Translations under genes and position numbers: made by a program
In this document: positions 639-10,746 of the stretch, piece after piece
Position numbering within the stretch: position 1 is the first letter of the stretch
How the letters are laid out: each line of letters opens with the position of its first letter
Source: Candidatus Liptonbacteria bacterium RIFCSPLOWO2_01_FULL_53_13
Lineage (GTDB): Bacteria > Patescibacteriota > Minisyncoccia > UBA6257 > 2-01-FULL-56-20
Length of the DNA: 12,264 nt
Direction of reading: 5' to 3'
NCBI GenBank assembly: GCA_001818895.1
Contig: MHLB01000064.1
Span: 444 to 12,707 of the forward strand
The notes under the pieces: model-generated
The model's input: the letters and a program-made list of their open reading frames with translations, nothing else
Told to the model about the DNA's origin: nothing
Database searches by the model: none

Positions 639-1484
639 CTACCGTATCCCGCTGTCGCAACTCACATCAACGCTCGTGAACGCGCCGGTTTTCACCTCCG
701 CTTCTTTTGTTTCACAGAACGGGAGAGGACTGCCGGTCGGCGAAGAAACCTCTATCGCGTACGCGCCGGGCGCAAGCGCCGCTCGGAAGTTCCCCTTCAG
801 GTCGGAAGCGGACTGGCTCGCCACCGCGCCGTTCGCCTTGTTTCGGATAACCACTTTGGCATTCGCGTAGGGCCGGTCGGCGCAATTCGGGTCGGGCGGC
901 ATCCGTTCAACGGGGCACGTCGGGCCCGTGTGAATAAAACCGCTTATCCCGCTCGCGGGCACGGGAGCGACAGCCACGACCGCCGTCGCGCTCTCCGGCG
1001 TTGCGCTCTGCAAAGTAAACGTATAGCCCTTGAGAACGGCGCTTTGTTTCATAACCGTGCCGAGACGCAACTCTTCCGAAACTCCTCCAAGAGTTACGGA
1101 AAAAAGCGCCGAGAGTTCTCCCTGCCAGACGCATTGGACATCCTGCGGGCACCGCGAGTCATTGATTTCTTTAAGCGTGAGCGATAACTCACCGGGGAAA
1201 ACCGCTTTGCCGCCGGTGCGGAGAGTAACGGGCTTGCCGAGAACCGCGGTTTGAGCGGTCGTAGTGGCAACGGAGCCGGAATCATCTATGGCATGGGTAA
1301 ACGTGCGCCCGTCCGGAAGCTTGCATTGCTCCGGATAGGTCTCCAGGACAGGGTAGCCCGCCGCAACGCAATCTTCATATGACGCAATGTTTGAATAGGT
1401 GTCGGGCGGAGCAAAGAAAAGCCACGCGCCCCCTGCGATCACTGCGGCGCCAATCCCCGCGGCAATAAGTGTTTTTTGGTTCAT
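639..1484 (-). CDS. Anchored extracytoplasmic protein with Cys-pair motifs and a carboxypeptidase-regulatory-like domain
   Basis: 281 residues. Residues 6-24 are a single hydrophobic N-terminal segment (signal anchor or uncleaved signal; no lipobox). Residues 36-62 carry a Cys39/Cys54 motif, DCVAAGYPVLETYPEQC then PDGRTF, that I associate from memory with secreted CPR proteins. Residues 83-175 form a second module with DSRCPQDVQCVWQGE (Cys112, Cys118), a pattern seen in bacterial secreted proteins of unknown role. From about residue 180 a beta-rich module (SGISGFIHTGPTC, YANAKVVIRN, LKGNFRAALAPGAYAIEV) resembles carboxypeptidase regulatory-like domains. The paired cysteines suggest disulfides outside the membrane. 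An extended -10 starts transcription 1-2 nt before ATG 1484, and palindrome copy 1 lies about 70 bp upstream of that. Function unknown. Confidence 0.8.
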   Translation of the reverse strand: MNQKTLIAAGIGAAVIAGGAWLFFAPPDTYSNIASYEDCVAAGYPVLETYPEQCKLPDGRTFTHAIDDSGSVATTTAQTAVLGKPVTLRTGGKAVFPGELSLTLKEINDSRCPQDVQCVWQGELSALFSVTLGGVSEELRLGTVMKQSAVLKGYTFTLQSATPESATAVVAVAPVPASGISGFIHTGPTCPVERMPPDPNCADRPYANAKVVIRNKANGAVASQSASDLKGNFRAALAPGAYAIEVSSPTGSPLPFCETKEAEVKTGAFTSVDVSCDSGIR

Positions 1485-1704: not shown

Positions 1705-2310
1705 ATGAAACTGCGCATCTATTTCCGGCTGGGATTCACCCTTGTTCTCCTCGCCCTTGTCCTTTGGGGGCTTTATGCGGTCGGCCTCATCGGCAATCAA
1801 TCCCCCGCCGGGATTTCCACCACCGCCGTAATCCGCGAACTGCGGGAGCTTGACCGGCTTGAAACCGCCTCATTCACCATAGAGAAAATCATTGACGCGG
1901 GCACGGCGGGAAACGGCATCAAGGAAATGCTCTTCGGCGACAGGATACTTCTCGTCGCCCACGGCGAAGTGGTGGCGGGATTTGACCTTTCCGAGCTCAA
2001 AGACAAAGATATCAAGATTGAGGGCAAGATGATTACGCTCGCGCTTCCCCCGCCCGCCATATTGATCTCGCGGTTGGACAACGAGGCGACGCGCGTCTAC
2101 GACCGGAAGCTCGGCCTTCTCGCCACGGGCGACAAAAATCTTGAGTCCGAGGCGCGGCTCACGGCGGAGAAATCCATCATAAGCGCCGCATGCAAGGGCG
2201 GCATCTTGAACGAGGCGTCCCAAAACGGCAGAAATCAGCTCTCCGCGCTCCTCGGCTCGCTCGGATTCACCACGATTATCGTAAACATCCCCGATGGGAG
2301 CTGTTCGTGA
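1705..2310 (+). CDS. DUF4230 family membrane-anchored protein
   Basis: 201 residues. One N-terminal membrane segment (about residues 8-28, LGFTLVLLALVLWGLYAVGL) anchors an extracytoplasmic domain. The rest fits my recollection of DUF4230: an early LETASFTIEKIID strand, GDRILLVAHGEVVAGFDLSEL, a strand ending in LPPPAIL, VYDRKLGLL, and a C-terminal helix with an ILNEASQNGRNQLSALLGSLGF-like stretch before the last strand TTIIVNI. The molecular role of the family is unknown. Its stop codon TGA overlaps the likely GTG start of the next gene (GTGA at 2307-2310), so the two are probably translationally coupled. The start is supported by the -10 box 7 nt upstream. Confidence 0.82.
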   Translation: MKLRIYFRLGFTLVLLALVLWGLYAVGLIGNQSPAGISTTAVIRELRELDRLETASFTIEKIIDAGTAGNGIKEMLFGDRILLVAHGEVVAGFDLSELKDKDIKIEGKMITLALPPPAILISRLDNEATRVYDRKLGLLATGDKNLESEARLTAEKSIISAACKGGILNEASQNGRNQLSALLGSLGFTTIIVNIPDGSCS

Positions 2311-3743
2311 TAACGAGTATGACGAAACAGGAGACGCATACTTTGGACGTGAGCAATGTTTGCAGGCAGGTCAAAGAAGCGTACCGGCAAAAAAATAAGC
2401 TTTCCGTATATCATGGAACAACCAATTCCACGCGGTCGCTTCGGTTTAAAACGGGAGAGTTTGTTGACATCAGCAAGCTGAACCGAATTCTTGCGATCAG
2501 CGAGAAAGAACGATACGCGCTGGTGGAACCGAACGTGCCGATGGATAAGCTCCTGCGCGCAACGCTCAAGGCGGGGTTGATGCCGGCTGTCGTGCCCGAA
2601 TTTCCGGGAATAACTTTGGGAGGAGGGATTCAGGGCGGTGCCGGAGAAAGCAGCTCTTTCAAATATGGCGGAGTCCACAACGGATGCGAGGAATATGAAA
2701 TGGTGCTCGGCAACGGAGAGCTGGTAAAAGCTTCGGCAAACGAAAACGCGGACCTGTATTGGGGAACCGCCTGTTCATACGGAACGCTCGGAATAATAAC
2801 GCTGGCAAAATTGCATCTTCTGCCGGCGAAGCGCTATGTGCGCCTCGCCTACCGGACGGTGCGCGGCGCCGAAGAGGCCGTCGCATTGCTCGCTGCAAGC
2901 GCCCGAAAGGACTTTGATTATATTGACGGCATACTATTTTCTAAAAACTTCGGGGTGGTTATGACGGGCAAGCTGACAGACGACAATCAGAATCTTCCGA
3001 TAGCAACGTTCCATAAGGCAACGGACGAATGGTTCTATCTGCACGCAGAAAGTTTCTCGCAGCGGCACCCGAATGGCGAAGAATGCATCCCGCTGGTTGA
3101 TTACTTGTTCAGATACGACAGAGGTGCGTTCTGGGCGGGCAAGTATGCCTTTCGCCGCGCGAATGTGCCTTTCAACAGAGTCACTCGATTTCTGCTCAAT
3201 CCATTCTTCAAGACGAGGACGATGTACCGCCTTTTGCACACGACGAACGCTTCACAGCAATACGTGTCGCAAGATATTTGTTTCCCGCAGAAAACCACCT
3301 TGCAATTCATCCGGTTCGTAGATGAAACATTGAACATATATCCGCTTTGGCTCTTGCCCATAAAACCGGCGCTTCACGAAAAATTGGCTCCGAGTTGGCT
3401 CCAAGATAATCTTGCGATAAATGTCGGCGTGTGGAGCGAATCAACCCGCGATGCGGATAAATTCATCTCGCTTAACAGAACCATGGAGGCCGTGGCTAAA
3501 AATCTTGGCGGGCGCAAAACGCTCTACGCCCATGCGTACTATACGCGGGAAGAATTTTGGAAAATCTACGACTTGGGATGGTATGAGGCATTGAGAAAGA
3601 AATATTATGCAACGGATGTTTTCCCGGATATCTATGAGAAGACCAACGTTTCCCGCAAATACACGCCTTCTCTGCGGAAAGGATTATGGGATTTTATAAA
3701 ATCCCCTTTCAAGATTCCCATTGACGCTTCCAAGCCCGAATAA
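2307..3743 (+). CDS. FAD-dependent oxidoreductase, delta(24)-sterol reductase (DHCR24)-like
   Basis: About 478 residues of a VAO/PCMH-fold flavoprotein. N-terminal FAD_binding_4-type features include FVDISKLNRILAI, YALVEPNVPMDKLL, VVPEFPGITLGGGIQGGAGE, SSSFKYGGVHNGCEEYEMVL and ENADLYWGTACSYGTLGI. These match human DHCR24 and plant DWARF1 nearly block for block. The C-terminal half also follows DHCR24: YIDGILFSKNFGVVMTGKLTD, YVSQDICFP, IYPLWLLPI, LYAHAYYTREEFWKIYD and ATDVFPDIYEKTNVS. Unlike human DHCR24 it has no N-terminal membrane helix. DHCR24 reduces the C24 double bond of sterols; nothing here shows a sterol pathway, so the true substrate is unknown. GTG 2307 is chosen because GGGAG (2296-2300) lies 6 nt upstream and the start overlaps the previous stop; ATG 2319 is the alternative (474 residues). 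Confidence 0.85.
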   Translation: MITSMTKQETHTLDVSNVCRQVKEAYRQKNKLSVYHGTTNSTRSLRFKTGEFVDISKLNRILAISEKERYALVEPNVPMDKLLRATLKAGLMPAVVPEFPGITLGGGIQGGAGESSSFKYGGVHNGCEEYEMVLGNGELVKASANENADLYWGTACSYGTLGIITLAKLHLLPAKRYVRLAYRTVRGAEEAVALLAASARKDFDYIDGILFSKNFGVVMTGKLTDDNQNLPIATFHKATDEWFYLHAESFSQRHPNGEECIPLVDYLFRYDRGAFWAGKYAFRRANVPFNRVTRFLLNPFFKTRTMYRLLHTTNASQQYVSQDICFPQKTTLQFIRFVDETLNIYPLWLLPIKPALHEKLAPSWLQDNLAINVGVWSESTRDADKFISLNRTMEAVAKNLGGRKTLYAHAYYTREEFWKIYDLGWYEALRKKYYATDVFPDIYEKTNVSRKYTPSLRKGLWDFIKSPFKIPIDASKPE

Positions 3744-3779
3744 AGTTGGCTGCCCGCCGAGTGCTTCCTACGTTCCCCT

Positions 3780-3813
3780 CAACGGCTCAACGACGACTCT
3801 CGTTGAGCCGTTG
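3780..3813. repeat. 14-bp stem-loop downstream of the DHCR24-like gene
   Basis: A perfect 14-bp stem (3780-3793 with 3800-3813) has a 6-nt loop. It sits 37 nt after the stop codon, in the convergent gap before the TrpR-like gene. It is followed by AAAAAC rather than a T-run, and the minus strand has no T-run on the far side, so it is not a classical intrinsic terminator. It could still block 3' exonucleases or help transcription end. It lies just 9 nt before palindrome copy 2. Confidence 0.6.
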
Positions 3814-3822
3814 AAAAACTTT

Positions 3823-3858
3823 CCCATGTTATGATGTACTAGTACATCATAACATGGG
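3823..3858. repeat. Perfect 36-bp palindrome, copy 2 (GTACTAGTAC core)
   Basis: The longest of the three copies: CCCATGTTATGATGTACT followed by its exact reverse complement, centred between 3840 and 3841, with one G-T and one A-T match outside. It lies between the 3' ends of the DHCR24-like gene and the TrpR-like gene, so here it is not in a promoter region for either. There is no T-tract on either side. Confidence 0.85.
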
Positions 3859-3903
3859 GACCGCGCAACTTACGCGCGTCAAAAGGCGGAACGAAACCAA
3901 TGT

Positions 3904-4206
3904 TCAGGATTTGCGCCGGTAATGCACCGCGCGCGCCAGAACGCCCGTTCCCGTTTCAAGGACCCGGGCGCCGCGATTCACGGTCTGCAGGGCTACGTGC
4001 AATTCCTCGCACACCGTACGCTGGGGCATTTCCTCCGCGAGCCGCTTCACTATTTGCAAGCGAGCGACAAATTCATGCATCTCGCCCGGAGTGAATATGT
4101 CTTCAAGCAGGGACTCAAACGCCTCCCGCCGGGAAGCGTGCGCGCGCAACAGCTCAATGAACTCATCCCTGTCTTTTCTGGCAATTTTGGCGTTTATATT
4201 TCTCAT
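3904..4206 (-). CDS. TrpR/YerC-superfamily DNA-binding repressor
   Basis: 100 residues, all-helical, close in length to E. coli TrpR (108). Residues 38-83 track TrpR: FTPGE at 38-42 (TrpR LTPDE), RLQIV at 49-53 (TrpR RVRIV), EMPQRTVCEEL at 59-69 (TrpR EMSQRELKNEL), then TVNRG at 75-79 (TrpR TITRG). One residue is missing between helices C and D. The helix-turn-helix spans about 60-83. TrpR residues Thr44, Arg54, Arg84 and Gly85 have counterparts (Thr39, Arg49, Arg78, Gly79), but TrpR Ser88 is Val82, so tryptophan binding is doubtful; some of these residues are also shared by non-tryptophan YerC-type proteins. Palindromes at 3823-3858 and 4265-4296 bracket the gene, and their cores resemble TrpR half-sites. 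Autoregulation and control of neighbours is inferred. No Shine-Dalgarno or close -10 was found; ATG 4206 is the only reasonable start. Confidence 0.82.
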   Translation of the reverse strand: MRNINAKIARKDRDEFIELLRAHASRREAFESLLEDIFTPGEMHEFVARLQIVKRLAEEMPQRTVCEELHVALQTVNRGARVLETGTGVLARAVHYRRKS

Positions 4207-4227
4207 GGTTTTTATTTGGTTTTTATT
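4206..4227. repeat. Two tandem 11-bp repeats at the TrpR-like gene start
   Basis: TGGTTTTTATT occurs twice head-to-tail on the plus strand, at 4206-4216 and 4217-4227. On the coding strand this is an A-rich stretch touching the ATG. It could be an unstructured ribosome-access region replacing a Shine-Dalgarno, or simple slippage. Confidence 0.6.
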
Positions 4228-4264
4228 CCCGCATTTATGAATTAATTACGGATCGACTCTTTGC

Positions 4265-4296
4265 TATGTTATGATGTACTAGTACATCATAACATA
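4265..4296. repeat. Perfect 32-bp palindrome, copy 3 (GTACTAGTAC core)
   Basis: TATGTTATGATGTACT followed by its exact reverse complement, centred between 4280 and 4281. It sits in the divergent promoter region of the TrpR-like gene (ATG 4206, minus) and the DUF2000 operon (ATG 4354, plus), at about -57 to -88 from the predicted plus-strand start. This is a classic place for an autoregulatory operator. Confidence 0.85.
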
Positions 4297-4337
4297 TGAA
4301 TGCTTTTTGCGTTCAACCGCGAAAATGCGTTGAAAAA

Positions 4338-4346
4338 TGATATAAT
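4338..4346 (+). promoter_or_regulatory. Extended -10 promoter of the DUF2000 operon
   Basis: TGA then a consensus TATAAT, ending 7 nt before ATG 4354. The predicted +1 is at 4353. It rules out the in-frame ATG at 4300 as the start for this promoter. No clear -35. Confidence 0.65.
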
Positions 4347-4353
4347 CAAACAT

Positions 4354-4791
4354 ATGGGCAACCAAGATGTAACGACTTATAAATTCGCGGCTGTTCTTAG
4401 CAAAAAAGTCGACTTAGGGAAGGTTATGAACGCTCTGGCGCATATGTCACTCGGACTTGCCGCGGGCGCAACTCCCGAGCAGATAAAGGAAATGGGATTC
4501 ATTGATTACGTGGATAAGGACGAAAACCACCACCGCAACTTATCAAAAAACAGCTACGTTATTCTGCGCGCCGACAATTCAAGCCGGATCAGGACCGTGC
4601 GCTCGCAAGCGATTGAAAGAGGAATCCTCTGCGTTGACTTCGCGCATACGATGCAGGAAGGCACCTATGCCGAACAGCTTGAGAGAACCAAGGGAACTCC
4701 GGAGGCGGATCTTGAATATTATGGTATCTGCCTGTTTGGCCCGATAACCGATGTAAGCGAGCTGACTAAAAAGTTTTCTCTGTGGAGATGA
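4354..4791 (+). CDS. DUF2000 family protein
   Basis: 145 residues. The N-terminus [30 protein letters not shown] is the hallmark of DUF2000, a small alpha/beta family thought to share the fold of peptidyl-tRNA hydrolase 2. Other typical pieces are [52 protein letters not shown] and [12 protein letters not shown]. The cellular role of the family is not established. ATG 4354 is chosen over the in-frame ATG at 4300 because of the promoter and because family similarity begins just after it. It is first in a tight plus-strand cluster: the GIY-YIG gene starts 13 nt after its stop. Confidence 0.85.
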
Positions 4792-7227: not shown

Positions 7228-8172
7228 TTACGACAGCCGGGCCATCGCGTCCATCCGCTGTTGGAGCGCAAGGGCAGCTTCGTACGAGAGCATGCCCTTG
7301 GTGTGCCACTCCGAGATACGGCTGTGGTGCAACCCGTCGCACAACCGGTCCCCGAAGTCCCCGATGCCGGGCTTGATATACGCGTTGGGGTCGAGGCCCT
7401 CGTCCAGCGCCCCCACCACCATACGCACACCGGGGTGGCCCTGGAGCACGCGGACAACGCCTTCGGGGGCGACGATGACCGATGCGATCCGTATGCGGCC
7501 GTTGGAGAACCCACGTCCCCGCAGCACTTCGATTGCTTCGAGAAGCGACCCTCCGGTTGCGAGCATCGGGTCGCAGATGAGGATTCTCGCCTCCGGATTC
7601 GTGACGAGGATCTTCTCGCGGAAGTACGTCTCTGGCTTGGCGGTCTTCTCGTCGCGCGCCATCCCGAGGTGAACGAACCAGTTGAATCCCCTGCGCTTGG
7701 CGGCGGAGAGGAACGCGAGTCCCGCACGCCAGATGACGCAGATGAGGTCCCGCTCCGGCCTGATGTCGAGCTGGCACATTGCCTGTACGAGCAGGTCGTC
7801 CACGACGATGTCGGACGCCGCCCGAAATTCAGCGGGTGAAGTGAGCGGAAACCCTCCTTCGATGTAGTCCCGCCGGAGGGGGTAATAGGCGCGCTTCACG
7901 CCCTTCGCGTCCTTGTGGTCGCCGTGGCAGACGATGAGCGGTCCACCGTTCTTGCTGTCGTATCGCCGTATCGCCCATTCCAGGAGCACGAGCTCTTCCT
8001 CGGTGAGCGGGTGGAACGCCTCGTCCTTCTCCTGACGTCCGAACATGACTCGCCGGAGGCGCTGCAACGCCTCCGCATGGTTTTCCGGGAGAAGCTCCAT
8101 GCGCTTCTTCCTGCGCCGTTCCACCTCGGACAGCGTGAAGCTGACTGTGTCGCGCGTCAGTGTGCAACTCAA
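7228..8172 (-). CDS. upp: Uracil phosphoribosyltransferase-like protein with N-terminal extension
   Basis: 314 residues, against about 208 for typical Upp. The UPRT core covers roughly residues 105-285: WRAGLAFL (family RAGLG), DEKTAKPETYFREK, the PRPP loop ICDPMLATGGS, VIVAPEGVVRVLQGHP, and the uracil-site signature YIKPGIGDFGDRLCDG. UPRT makes UMP from uracil and PRPP in pyrimidine salvage. The first ~105 residues are an extra, mostly helical region (ELLPENHAEALQRLRRVMF, LTEEELVLLEWAIRRYD) that I do not recognise. The TTG start at 8172 is supported by AGGTGG 4 nt upstream; ATG 8100 is the alternative. Unlike its neighbours it has a full promoter, a leader, a Shine-Dalgarno and a terminator, and its codons look more GC-ended, hinting at different origin or expression class. 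The activity on uracil is inferred. Confidence 0.85.
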   Translation of the reverse strand: MSCTLTRDTVSFTLSEVERRRKKRMELLPENHAEALQRLRRVMFGRQEKDEAFHPLTEEELVLLEWAIRRYDSKNGGPLIVCHGDHKDAKGVKRAYYPLRRDYIEGGFPLTSPAEFRAASDIVVDDLLVQAMCQLDIRPERDLICVIWRAGLAFLSAAKRRGFNWFVHLGMARDEKTAKPETYFREKILVTNPEARILICDPMLATGGSLLEAIEVLRGRGFSNGRIRIASVIVAPEGVVRVLQGHPGVRMVVGALDEGLDPNAYIKPGIGDFGDRLCDGLHHSRISEWHTKGMLSYEAALALQQRMDAMARLS

Positions 8173-10119: not shown

Positions 10120-10746
10120 GTGACTTTTTCCAAAACGCGTCTTCTCCGCATCCTCGGCACATGCGCCGTTCTGCTTCTCGCTATCCTCGCGCGCGAAGCT
10201 ATCCCGCAGAATAATTTCATCGCGCCAATCCCCTCCGTCCAAACGCCCGAGGCCGACACCGCCGCCATTGCCGACACTCTCGCGCAAAAATCGGCGGGCG
10301 GGCAGAACGTAAAAAACGAGCAAAATTTATTTGAAGTCGTCCGCGTCATTGACGGCGACACGATTGAAGTGCAAAAAAACGGTACGGTGAAAAAAGTGCG
10401 CTTCATCGGCATAGACACCCCCGAAACCGTTGACCCACGCAAATCCGTGCAATGCTTCGGCAAGGAAGCGTCGGCAAAGGCAACCGAATTGCTTTTGGGC
10501 AAGCGCGTGCGCCTTGAGACCGACGCGACGCAAGACGCCTACGACCGGTATGGCCGCCTGCTCGCCTACGCCTATCTTCCGAACGGCGTGTTTTTCAATA
10601 GCTATATGATTGAGGAGGGATACGCGCACGAATACACCTACGAACTCCCCTATCGGTATCAAAAAGAATTCAAGGCCGCCGAAGCGCGGGCGCGCGAAGC
10701 CGGAAAGGGGTTATGGAATCCGGCGATGTGTAATGGGAAAAAATAA
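10120..10746 (+). CDS. Membrane-anchored or secreted thermonuclease (SNase-like)
   Basis: 208 residues. Residues 8-24 are hydrophobic (LLRILGTCAVLLLAILA), a signal peptide or anchor. A 40-residue linker follows, then an SNase domain (about 70-205). Staphylococcal nuclease active-site residues have counterparts: Asp80 in VIDGDTIEV (Asp21), Arg94 in KVRFIGIDTPE (Arg35), Asp99 (Asp40), Glu102 (Glu43) and Arg146 in YDRYGRLLAY (Arg87). It is therefore predicted to be an active Ca2+-dependent nuclease acting outside the membrane. In host-dependent CPR cells such enzymes may help salvage nucleotides, which fits the UPRT gene in the same window. The GTG start is chosen because the -10 box lies 6 nt upstream and there is no better ATG before the hydrophobic segment. 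Confidence 0.9.
   Translation: MTFSKTRLLRILGTCAVLLLAILAREAIPQNNFIAPIPSVQTPEADTAAIADTLAQKSAGGQNVKNEQNLFEVVRVIDGDTIEVQKNGTVKKVRFIGIDTPETVDPRKSVQCFGKEASAKATELLLGKRVRLETDATQDAYDRYGRLLAYAYLPNGVFFNSYMIEEGYAHEYTYELPYRYQKEFKAAEARAREAGKGLWNPAMCNGKK

Follow-up and report, generated by a model that had tools for sequence, protein, structure and literature searches.

A TrpR-type gene between perfect palindromes

The window analysed here is a stretch of 12,264 nucleotides on contig MHLB01000064.1 of Candidatus Liptonbacteria bacterium RIFCSPLOWO2_01_FULL_53_13, whose genome we denote G000; other G-numbers refer to the genomes compared with it. Within the window, a short TrpR-family gene lies between two long palindromes, with the following features around it:

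639-1484, reverse strand: gene for a 281-aa protein, 55 nt from the third palindrome copy; weak match to CarboxypepD_reg (28.5 bits, below the cut-off of 32.3)
1540-1567: third copy of the 28-bp palindrome core, between the divergent 281-aa and DUF4230 genes
1705-2310, forward strand: DUF4230 gene, downstream of the third site (Pfam DUF4230, 7.5e-31)
2319-3743, forward strand: FAD_binding_4 ORF (Pfam FAD_binding_4, 1.1e-16 on 2265-3743; start taken from the codon-score call)
3779-3814: terminator-like 15-bp inverted repeat with a 6-nt loop, after the FAD-binding ORF and just before the 36-bp palindrome
3823-3858: perfect 36-bp palindrome (28-bp core 3827-3854), between the convergent 3' ends of the trpR-like gene and the FAD-binding ORF
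3904-4206, reverse strand: TrpR-family gene, 100 aa (Pfam Trp_repressor)
4265-4296: perfect 32-bp palindrome (28-bp core 4267-4294), upstream of the divergent trpR-like and DUF2000 genes
4300-4791, forward strand: DUF2000 gene, divergent from the trpR-like gene (Pfam DUF2000, 2.3e-34)

The FAD-binding ORF ends 79 nt from the 36-bp palindrome, and the DUF2000 gene has a possible alternative start at 4354, 7 nt past a TATAAT at 4341-4346. A preliminary description of this DNA had reported two perfect palindromes bracketing the gene; both are present, with the common centre GTACTAGTAC, while the third copy in the window and ten more in the genome had been missed. All three occurrences of GTACTAGTAC in the window are exact, and with one mismatch allowed the mean in shuffled sequence is 0.06, with 0 of 200 shuffles reaching three. 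Elsewhere in the window, positions 10120-10746 encode a thermonuclease-like protein (NCBIfam NucI, 118.8 bits, below its cut-off), and 7228-8172 encode a 314-aa protein with a uracil phosphoribosyltransferase-like domain (match 141-277) and a long N-terminal extension.

The protein belongs to a TrpR-family clade

The protein had been described as TrpR-like through its helix-turn-helix, which is borne out by the Pfam scan (Trp_repressor, E 1.8e-13, 50.8 bits, above the cut-off of 27). Trp repressors made up 15 of the 16 distinct sequences matched in a PDB sequence search, and a PDB profile search gave E 1.5e-7; the structure model was poor (pLDDT 61), with TrpR accounting for 11 of 16 PDB matches, all at E 0.58 or worse. 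A protein on a 34-kb JGI contig (P0003) is 70% identical. Since the NCBIfam TrpR equivalog cut-off of 67.25 bits is missed both by the protein (40.3 bits) and by three trp-linked relatives (39.2, 49.2, and 53.3), we refer to a TrpR-family clade rather than to a TrpR equivalog.

Identity as a HisR or YerC/YecD protein was considered and rejected: the YerC/YecD model scores 22 bits against a cut-off of 42.2, and the site differs from cacTTTAnnnnnnTAAAgtg, given as the common HisR operator consensus in the part of PMC9413887 that concerns it. HisR-like proteins are also separated from the clade and E. coli TrpR by a branch (98/96) in our tree, in an analysis where the bootstrap had not settled, the E. 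coli branch is long, and its position inside the clade is unsure. Placement of the protein as a TrpR-family member with a lineage-specific operator is supported.

Residues Thr44, Arg54, Arg84, Gly85, and Ser88 are positions of the ligand pocket in E. coli TrpR numbering. On our alignments, T39, R49, R78, and G79 correspond to the first four and V82 to Ser88, so the mapping first proposed for these positions holds. The Arg54 and Arg84 equivalents are invariant (11/11 aligned sequences) and the Gly85 equivalent is kept in 10 of 11. The valine does not speak against tryptophan as ligand, since the trp-linked relatives aligned here (G138, G093, G493, and G487) also lack serine at that position. 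In G059 the Gly85 position is instead Trp. The portion of PMC8745587 on this point reports that in some relatives a tryptophan residue fills the place of the ligand, and the G059 residue would occupy that same position.

Thirteen identical sites in one genome

The 28-bp palindrome TGTTATGATGTACTAGTACATCATAACA occurs 13 times in G000 (777,595 bp in 66 contigs, 81% complete), three times in the window; every copy is exact in a search allowing 3 mismatches, at which the reversed control gave 0 copies in the same genome. It is absent from 37/37 other genomes of the family that were searched. The arms remain complementary for 1-5 bp past the 28 bp in 11/13 copies, with differing letters (CCCT/AGGG, CCCA/TGGG), and arm lengths run from 14 to 19 bp. 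Two pairs among the 13 copies have common sequence directly beside the site and a few share short repeats farther away; most flanks are unrelated, and 0/13 copies are abutted by direct repeats of at least 3 bp of the kind left by target-site duplication.

Viral origin was rejected as a candidate, with the 18-bp core and the palindrome of a second genome (G169, below) each found in 0 viral contigs. The 18-bp core matched three unrelated contigs in an 84,980-species set from which records near G000 were possibly excluded, against a chance expectation of ~4. A looser site pattern occurs in four viral contigs, two of which show weak similarity to the protein (tblastn E about 0.04). Two related viral contigs (L142, 8738-8765; L144, 465-492) carry a site near the G062/G138 type and a weak TrpR-like tblastn match each.

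Protein and site occur together across genomes

A query of four close sequences matched 16/244 genomes of the order at E 1e-6, and one of 13 sequences matched 66/244 at E 1e-4. The TrpR-type clade comprises 10/244 genomes at E 6.5e-35 or lower, with the next match at 7.8e-15, a gap to be read knowing that the clade supplied most query rows, which favours its scores. The next group of matches is HisR/YerC-like in appearance, and several of these genomes also encode HisR-like proteins in genes of their own. A 383-genome draw of the class gave five matches at E 1e-18, of which G480, G487, and G493 were new.

The pattern RNYGTACTAGTACRNY was found in 8/244 genomes: 16 times in G062, 13 in G000, nine in G109, seven in G098, twice in G060, and once each in G063, G138, and G011; its reversed control matched three other genomes once each. 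The GTACTAGTAC-centred site is present in 7/10 clade genomes vs 1/234 others (Fisher p 1.0e-10), and with the looser protein set in 8/16 vs 0/228 (p 4.6e-11); the genomes are related, and so both p values overstate independence. Sites in other genomes were selected for GTACTAGTAC, and support for GTACT half-sites there comes from co-occurrence with the protein. The co-occurrence of palindrome and orthologues that the preliminary description had proposed as a check is supported; one of the cases it had named as refuting, a palindrome in a genome without the protein, exists in G109, with nine sites in a 91%-complete assembly where no clade member turned up. Each of the three clade genomes lacking the site carries a different palindrome, at the gene or close by: ATTATGTACTGCTATAGCAGTACATAAT in G093, TATACTATACTAGTATACTATA in G059, and GATAATACGGCAATTGCCGTATTATC in G061, where it occurs once in the genome.

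These distributions bear on whether another DNA-binding protein reads the palindrome, the co-occurrence reflecting shared ancestry of a few lineages. G109 and the non-independence of the Fisher test cases would suit such a reader, whereas the carriers are spread over families f1, f4, and f8, with many non-carriers around them, the half-site agrees with the printed TrpR half-site, and the site abuts the start of the gene in G138 and G011. On balance, we regard a different reader as highly improbable, and the evidence supports the earlier claim that protein and palindromes belong together.

Half-sites and operator geometry

We read 49 of the 50 sites counted, one of the 16 in G062 not having been located. 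All copies are identical only in G000; the forms in other species are CTATGTTACAGYGTACTAGTACRCTGTAACATAG (G062), TGTATCAGTGTACTAGTACRCTGATACA (G109), and TGTATCACYGTACTAGTACRGTGATACA (G098). At positions -14 to -11 the commonest letters (TGTT/TGTA) occur in 100% of arms in G000, 88-100% in G109, 93-96% in G062, and 57-71% in G098. Deviations of the outer half-site include A rather than G at -13 in both arms in G011, an outer motif in just one of the two arms in G138, and a shift of one base in G063. Across genera, the TrpR half-site in the core is kept while the flanks vary.

The TrpR half-site is given as GNACT with an 8-bp spacer in the relevant part of PMC9413887. On this frame, the inner GTACT would be matched with an outer half-site that begins at G-13, so that the centres of two dimers would fall 4 bp to the left and right of the middle; agreement of the outer half-site with GNACT is only partial. 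Judged from the letters of the sites, most would fit TrpR half-site spacing if the central CTAG were shared by two dimers. The preliminary description had likewise proposed half-sites overlapping on a shared CTAG, and the GTACTAGTAC centre agrees with it; its view that this shape differs from the classic trp operator is weakened, as synthetic tandem-dimer operators are in print, with two dimers side by side on synthetic TrpR operators according to the portion of PMC8745587 that treats them. What appears to be new is the natural, multi-copy use of the CTAG-centred shape beside no trp gene. In addition, our scan found the classic TrpR geometry (GTACT/ATACT-N8-AGTAC/AGTAT) near the gene in G093, G480, and G493, where trpB-type genes are nearby, such that one clade has both TrpR operator shapes in nature, N8 in these genomes vs CTAG-centred in the others.

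Site placement and neighbouring genes

Genes at the sites were called with our own codon-score method (coding fraction 0.81). Among the 49 sites, 46 are intergenic, one is at a contig edge, and two are inside called ORFs (one in G098 that lacks outer arms and one in G109 within a weakly scored call). The intergenic gaps are tandem in 35 cases, divergent in eight, and convergent in three, a weak depletion of convergent gaps (p 0.085). A site precedes the start of the trpR-like gene itself in five genomes; the distance is 3 bp in both G138 and G011, 9 bp for G098, 48 bp for G062, and 60 bp for G000. In addition, G000, G062, and G098 carry another copy on the 3' side of the gene, where G060 has one too.

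The other 11 G000 copies are intergenic and each upstream of at least one gene. Genes transcribed away from the G000 sites include the following:

Part 1: metal-sensitive repressor family member, methyltransferase, cupredoxin, transglycosylase-like protein, pyrE
Part 2: NYN protein, cysteinyl-tRNA synthetase, two cysteine-rich ~600-aa paralogues, M23 peptidase
Part 3: sortase, S-adenosylhomocysteine hydrolase, DUF4230, DUF2000

No common pathway was seen among these genes, no trp family was found among the genes either side of the 13 sites, all of which were scanned, and the tryptophan content of putative targets did not differ (17 vs 77 genes, p 0.65). Distances from the site centre to the predicted -10 boxes of the downstream genes are mostly 38-138 nt, and some genes have no clear box. 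The earlier proposal that the protein controls neighbouring genes is weakened accordingly: the targets lack a theme and predicted promoters tend to be distant from the site, so the principal role may be something other than simple repression.

Several side observations concern these neighbourhoods. G000 has five ~600-aa cysteine-rich paralogues (L024, 2219-5903; L025, 4803-8409; L022, 5019-6854), with CQNC...FCPxCR in the four whose sequences were read; three were scanned and had no Pfam match, and the same three adjoin palindrome copies. The 3' end of a UPF0102 gene faces the site in G062, G063, and G098, and dnaX is by the site in G062 (3' side) and G098 (5' side); the UPF0102 recurrence may reflect only a shared locus, since UPF0102 also adjoins the gene, by eye, in G059, G060, and G061. 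A LAGLIDADG endonuclease-like gene is beside UPF0102, near the trpR-like locus or site, in G062 (L116, 15102-15563, by Pfam) and G063 (L128, 4171-4641, a homologue).

SlmA (TetR family) and MatP use scattered palindromes, and the protein might similarly bind its palindromes chiefly to mark or organise the chromosome rather than to control promoters. The identity of 13/13 G000 sites over 28 bp and the targets lacking a pathway theme would both follow from such a role; many sites are near 3' ends, with -10 boxes often 50-138 nt away, and those of G062 are dispersed along a 602-kb contig. A core chromosome function, however, would hardly be expected to show a patchy presence in 10/244 genomes, clade members adjoin trp genes in 5/12 relatives, and the site is at the gene's own start in several genomes. 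We therefore consider chromosome marking as the main work of the protein unlikely.

Tryptophan genes near the relatives

The trpR-like gene is beside tryptophan genes in those five relatives, namely G138, G093, G480, G493, and G487. The fullest set is in G138, where trpE, trpD, trpF, and genes for DAHP synthase, aroB, aroQ, and aroA are divergent from the gene with a site between, trpE, DAHP synthase, and aroB scoring below NCBI cut-offs (aroB by one bit). A TrpB-like gene is downstream in G093 and G480; G493 has trpS upstream and trpB downstream; and in G487 trpS is upstream, with a 40-bp palindrome (one mismatch) around ATCATGTACTAGTACATGAT on the 3' side of the gene. A trpD-like gene, under the cut-off, is nearby in G011 and G062, and no trp gene was seen by eye near the gene in G059, G060, G061, G063, and G098, where some contigs are short.

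Across the order, trpF was found in 3/244 genomes, only one of which (G138) has a clade member, and it was not found in the 81%-complete G000. The G000 organism thus seems unable to make tryptophan, a dependence deduced from one gene. Other neighbours of the trpR-like gene, in two families, include BtpA/SgcQ-like genes with a trpD-like gene in G011 (L174, 4755-9414) and, by eye, in G062 (L180, 10655-14162); a gene resembling class II amidotransferases was also seen by eye in G011 and G060.

Unrelated palindromes around related genes

Palindromes of unrelated sequence also bracket other genes of the superfamily, as two genomes show. In G099, a different palindrome occurs twice in the genome, bracketing its gene. 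In G169, the palindrome TTGCTTACGTGCTTTAAAGCACGTAAGCAA has eight copies, seven exact; two bracket the gene for a HisR-like protein, and another takes up the greater part of the 53 bp separating two convergent genes, tsaD-like and uvrA-like by eye. A further copy is in a CRISPR array (L136, G169:C42, 145-1340): the final spacer (174-214), which adjoins a degenerate repeat, equals the whole 30-bp palindrome plus 11 nt (30 of 41 nt). These last 11 nt are beside none of the other seven G169 copies on either side, which indicates that the spacer came from another DNA or a lost locus. The bracketed TrpR-superfamily genes noted are L133 (G169) 842-1483, L047 (G099) 1295-1839, L048 (G032) 1420-1781, and L051 (G138) 1387-1907. 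We also observed a transposase-like gene, by eye, adjoining the trpR-like gene in G093 (L176, 5937-6824).

These patterns raise the prospect that the palindrome is a small mobile or selfish REP-like repeat, with the TrpR-like gene caught between copies or serving the repeat. Its copies are perfectly identical and bracket the gene in G000, G062, and G098, as unrelated palindromes do in G169 and G099, and the spacer copy in G169, the G000 site pairs with common adjacent sequence or repeats farther off, and the G093 transposase-like gene point the same way. On the other hand, no transposase family was found in the window ORFs scanned (10 with Pfam and nine with NCBIfam, four of the latter with NCBIfam only) or at the site neighbours scanned in other loci, most flanks are unrelated and without abutting direct repeats, and the half-site is kept across genera while flanks change. 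Weighing these, we think a mobile repeat very unlikely.

A probable tryptophan-responsive regulator

The reading that best accounts for the whole, and which we hold to be probable, is of an autoregulated, probably tryptophan-responsive TrpR-type repressor with a lineage-specific operator and an enlarged site set. The data establish the protein family, the site copies with their intergenic placement and spacing, the co-occurrence, and the trp linkage of relatives; we infer that the protein binds the palindromes with a ligand, regulates its own gene and its neighbours, and places two dimers on each site. A TrpR-type dimer with L-tryptophan or a close analogue bound would most likely recognise GTACT half-sites, two of which would overlap at the centre of an operator centred on CTAG. 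Each inner half-site would pair with an outer TGT(A/T) half-site 8 bp farther out, so that one perfect palindrome could accommodate two adjacent dimers. The 4265-4296 copy would control the trpR-like gene and perhaps DUF2000 as well, and the 3' copy (3823-3858) could help by looping. Autoregulation is likely, as is tryptophan as the ligand, given the trp neighbours of the clade and the open Gly85 position; a regulon of the genes next to the 13 sites is no more than possible.

A broader scenario, which we offer as speculative and rather doubtful, is that in small bacteria presumed to depend on tryptophan a tryptophan repressor has outlived its pathway, its operator having been copied or converged to 7-16 near-perfect tandem-dimer palindromes that make it a genome-wide regulator or chromosome marker reporting tryptophan supply, with a like event occurring separately in the TrpR-superfamily member of G169 (eight copies of an unrelated palindrome). 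In the open-access collection searched, which leaves out most subscription papers, no paper mentions TrpR together with "Candidate Phyla Radiation", and one, PMC10655421, mentions TrpR and Patescibacteria, once each. The locus offers a short, testable case of an amino-acid repressor without a trp gene near its sites, a classic regulator separated from its classic pathway.

Comparison with known systems

The operator geometry of TrpR, a textbook repressor, is known from E. coli and synthetic DNA as either one dimer on an 8-bp spacer or several in tandem. The system described here resembles gammaproteobacterial TrpR (PF01371) in its family match, its equivalents of Arg54, Arg84, and Gly85, its candidate GTACT half-sites, the site upstream of its own gene, and relatives beside trp genes. 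For proteobacterial TrpR regulons, the table entry in PMC5343134 names tryptophan and aromatic amino acids and gives 53 genomes, with 5.9 in the last column. Unlike these, the present case has 13 sites with no trp family next to them, a CTAG centre, and valine for Ser88.

HisR and YerC/YecD share the Pfam family and palindromic operators; for HisR, the pages of PMC9413887 concerned describe palindromic operators whose consensus is lineage-specific, with almost half of the genomes carrying a site ahead of hisR. The operator here is not cacTTTAnnnnnnTAAAgtg, however, and the protein is on the TrpR side of the tree. REP/RAYT-type mobile palindromes have an associated transposase, and none was found among the window ORFs scanned. 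In operator shape there is a likeness to synthetic DNA: the tandem-dimer TrpR operator of Lawson and Carey 1993 (1TRR) reportedly has an overlapping GTACTAGTAC centre. The G000 sites share this overlapping centre with the synthetic tandem-dimer operators; unlike them, they are genomic, 28-38 bp long, and repeated 13 times.
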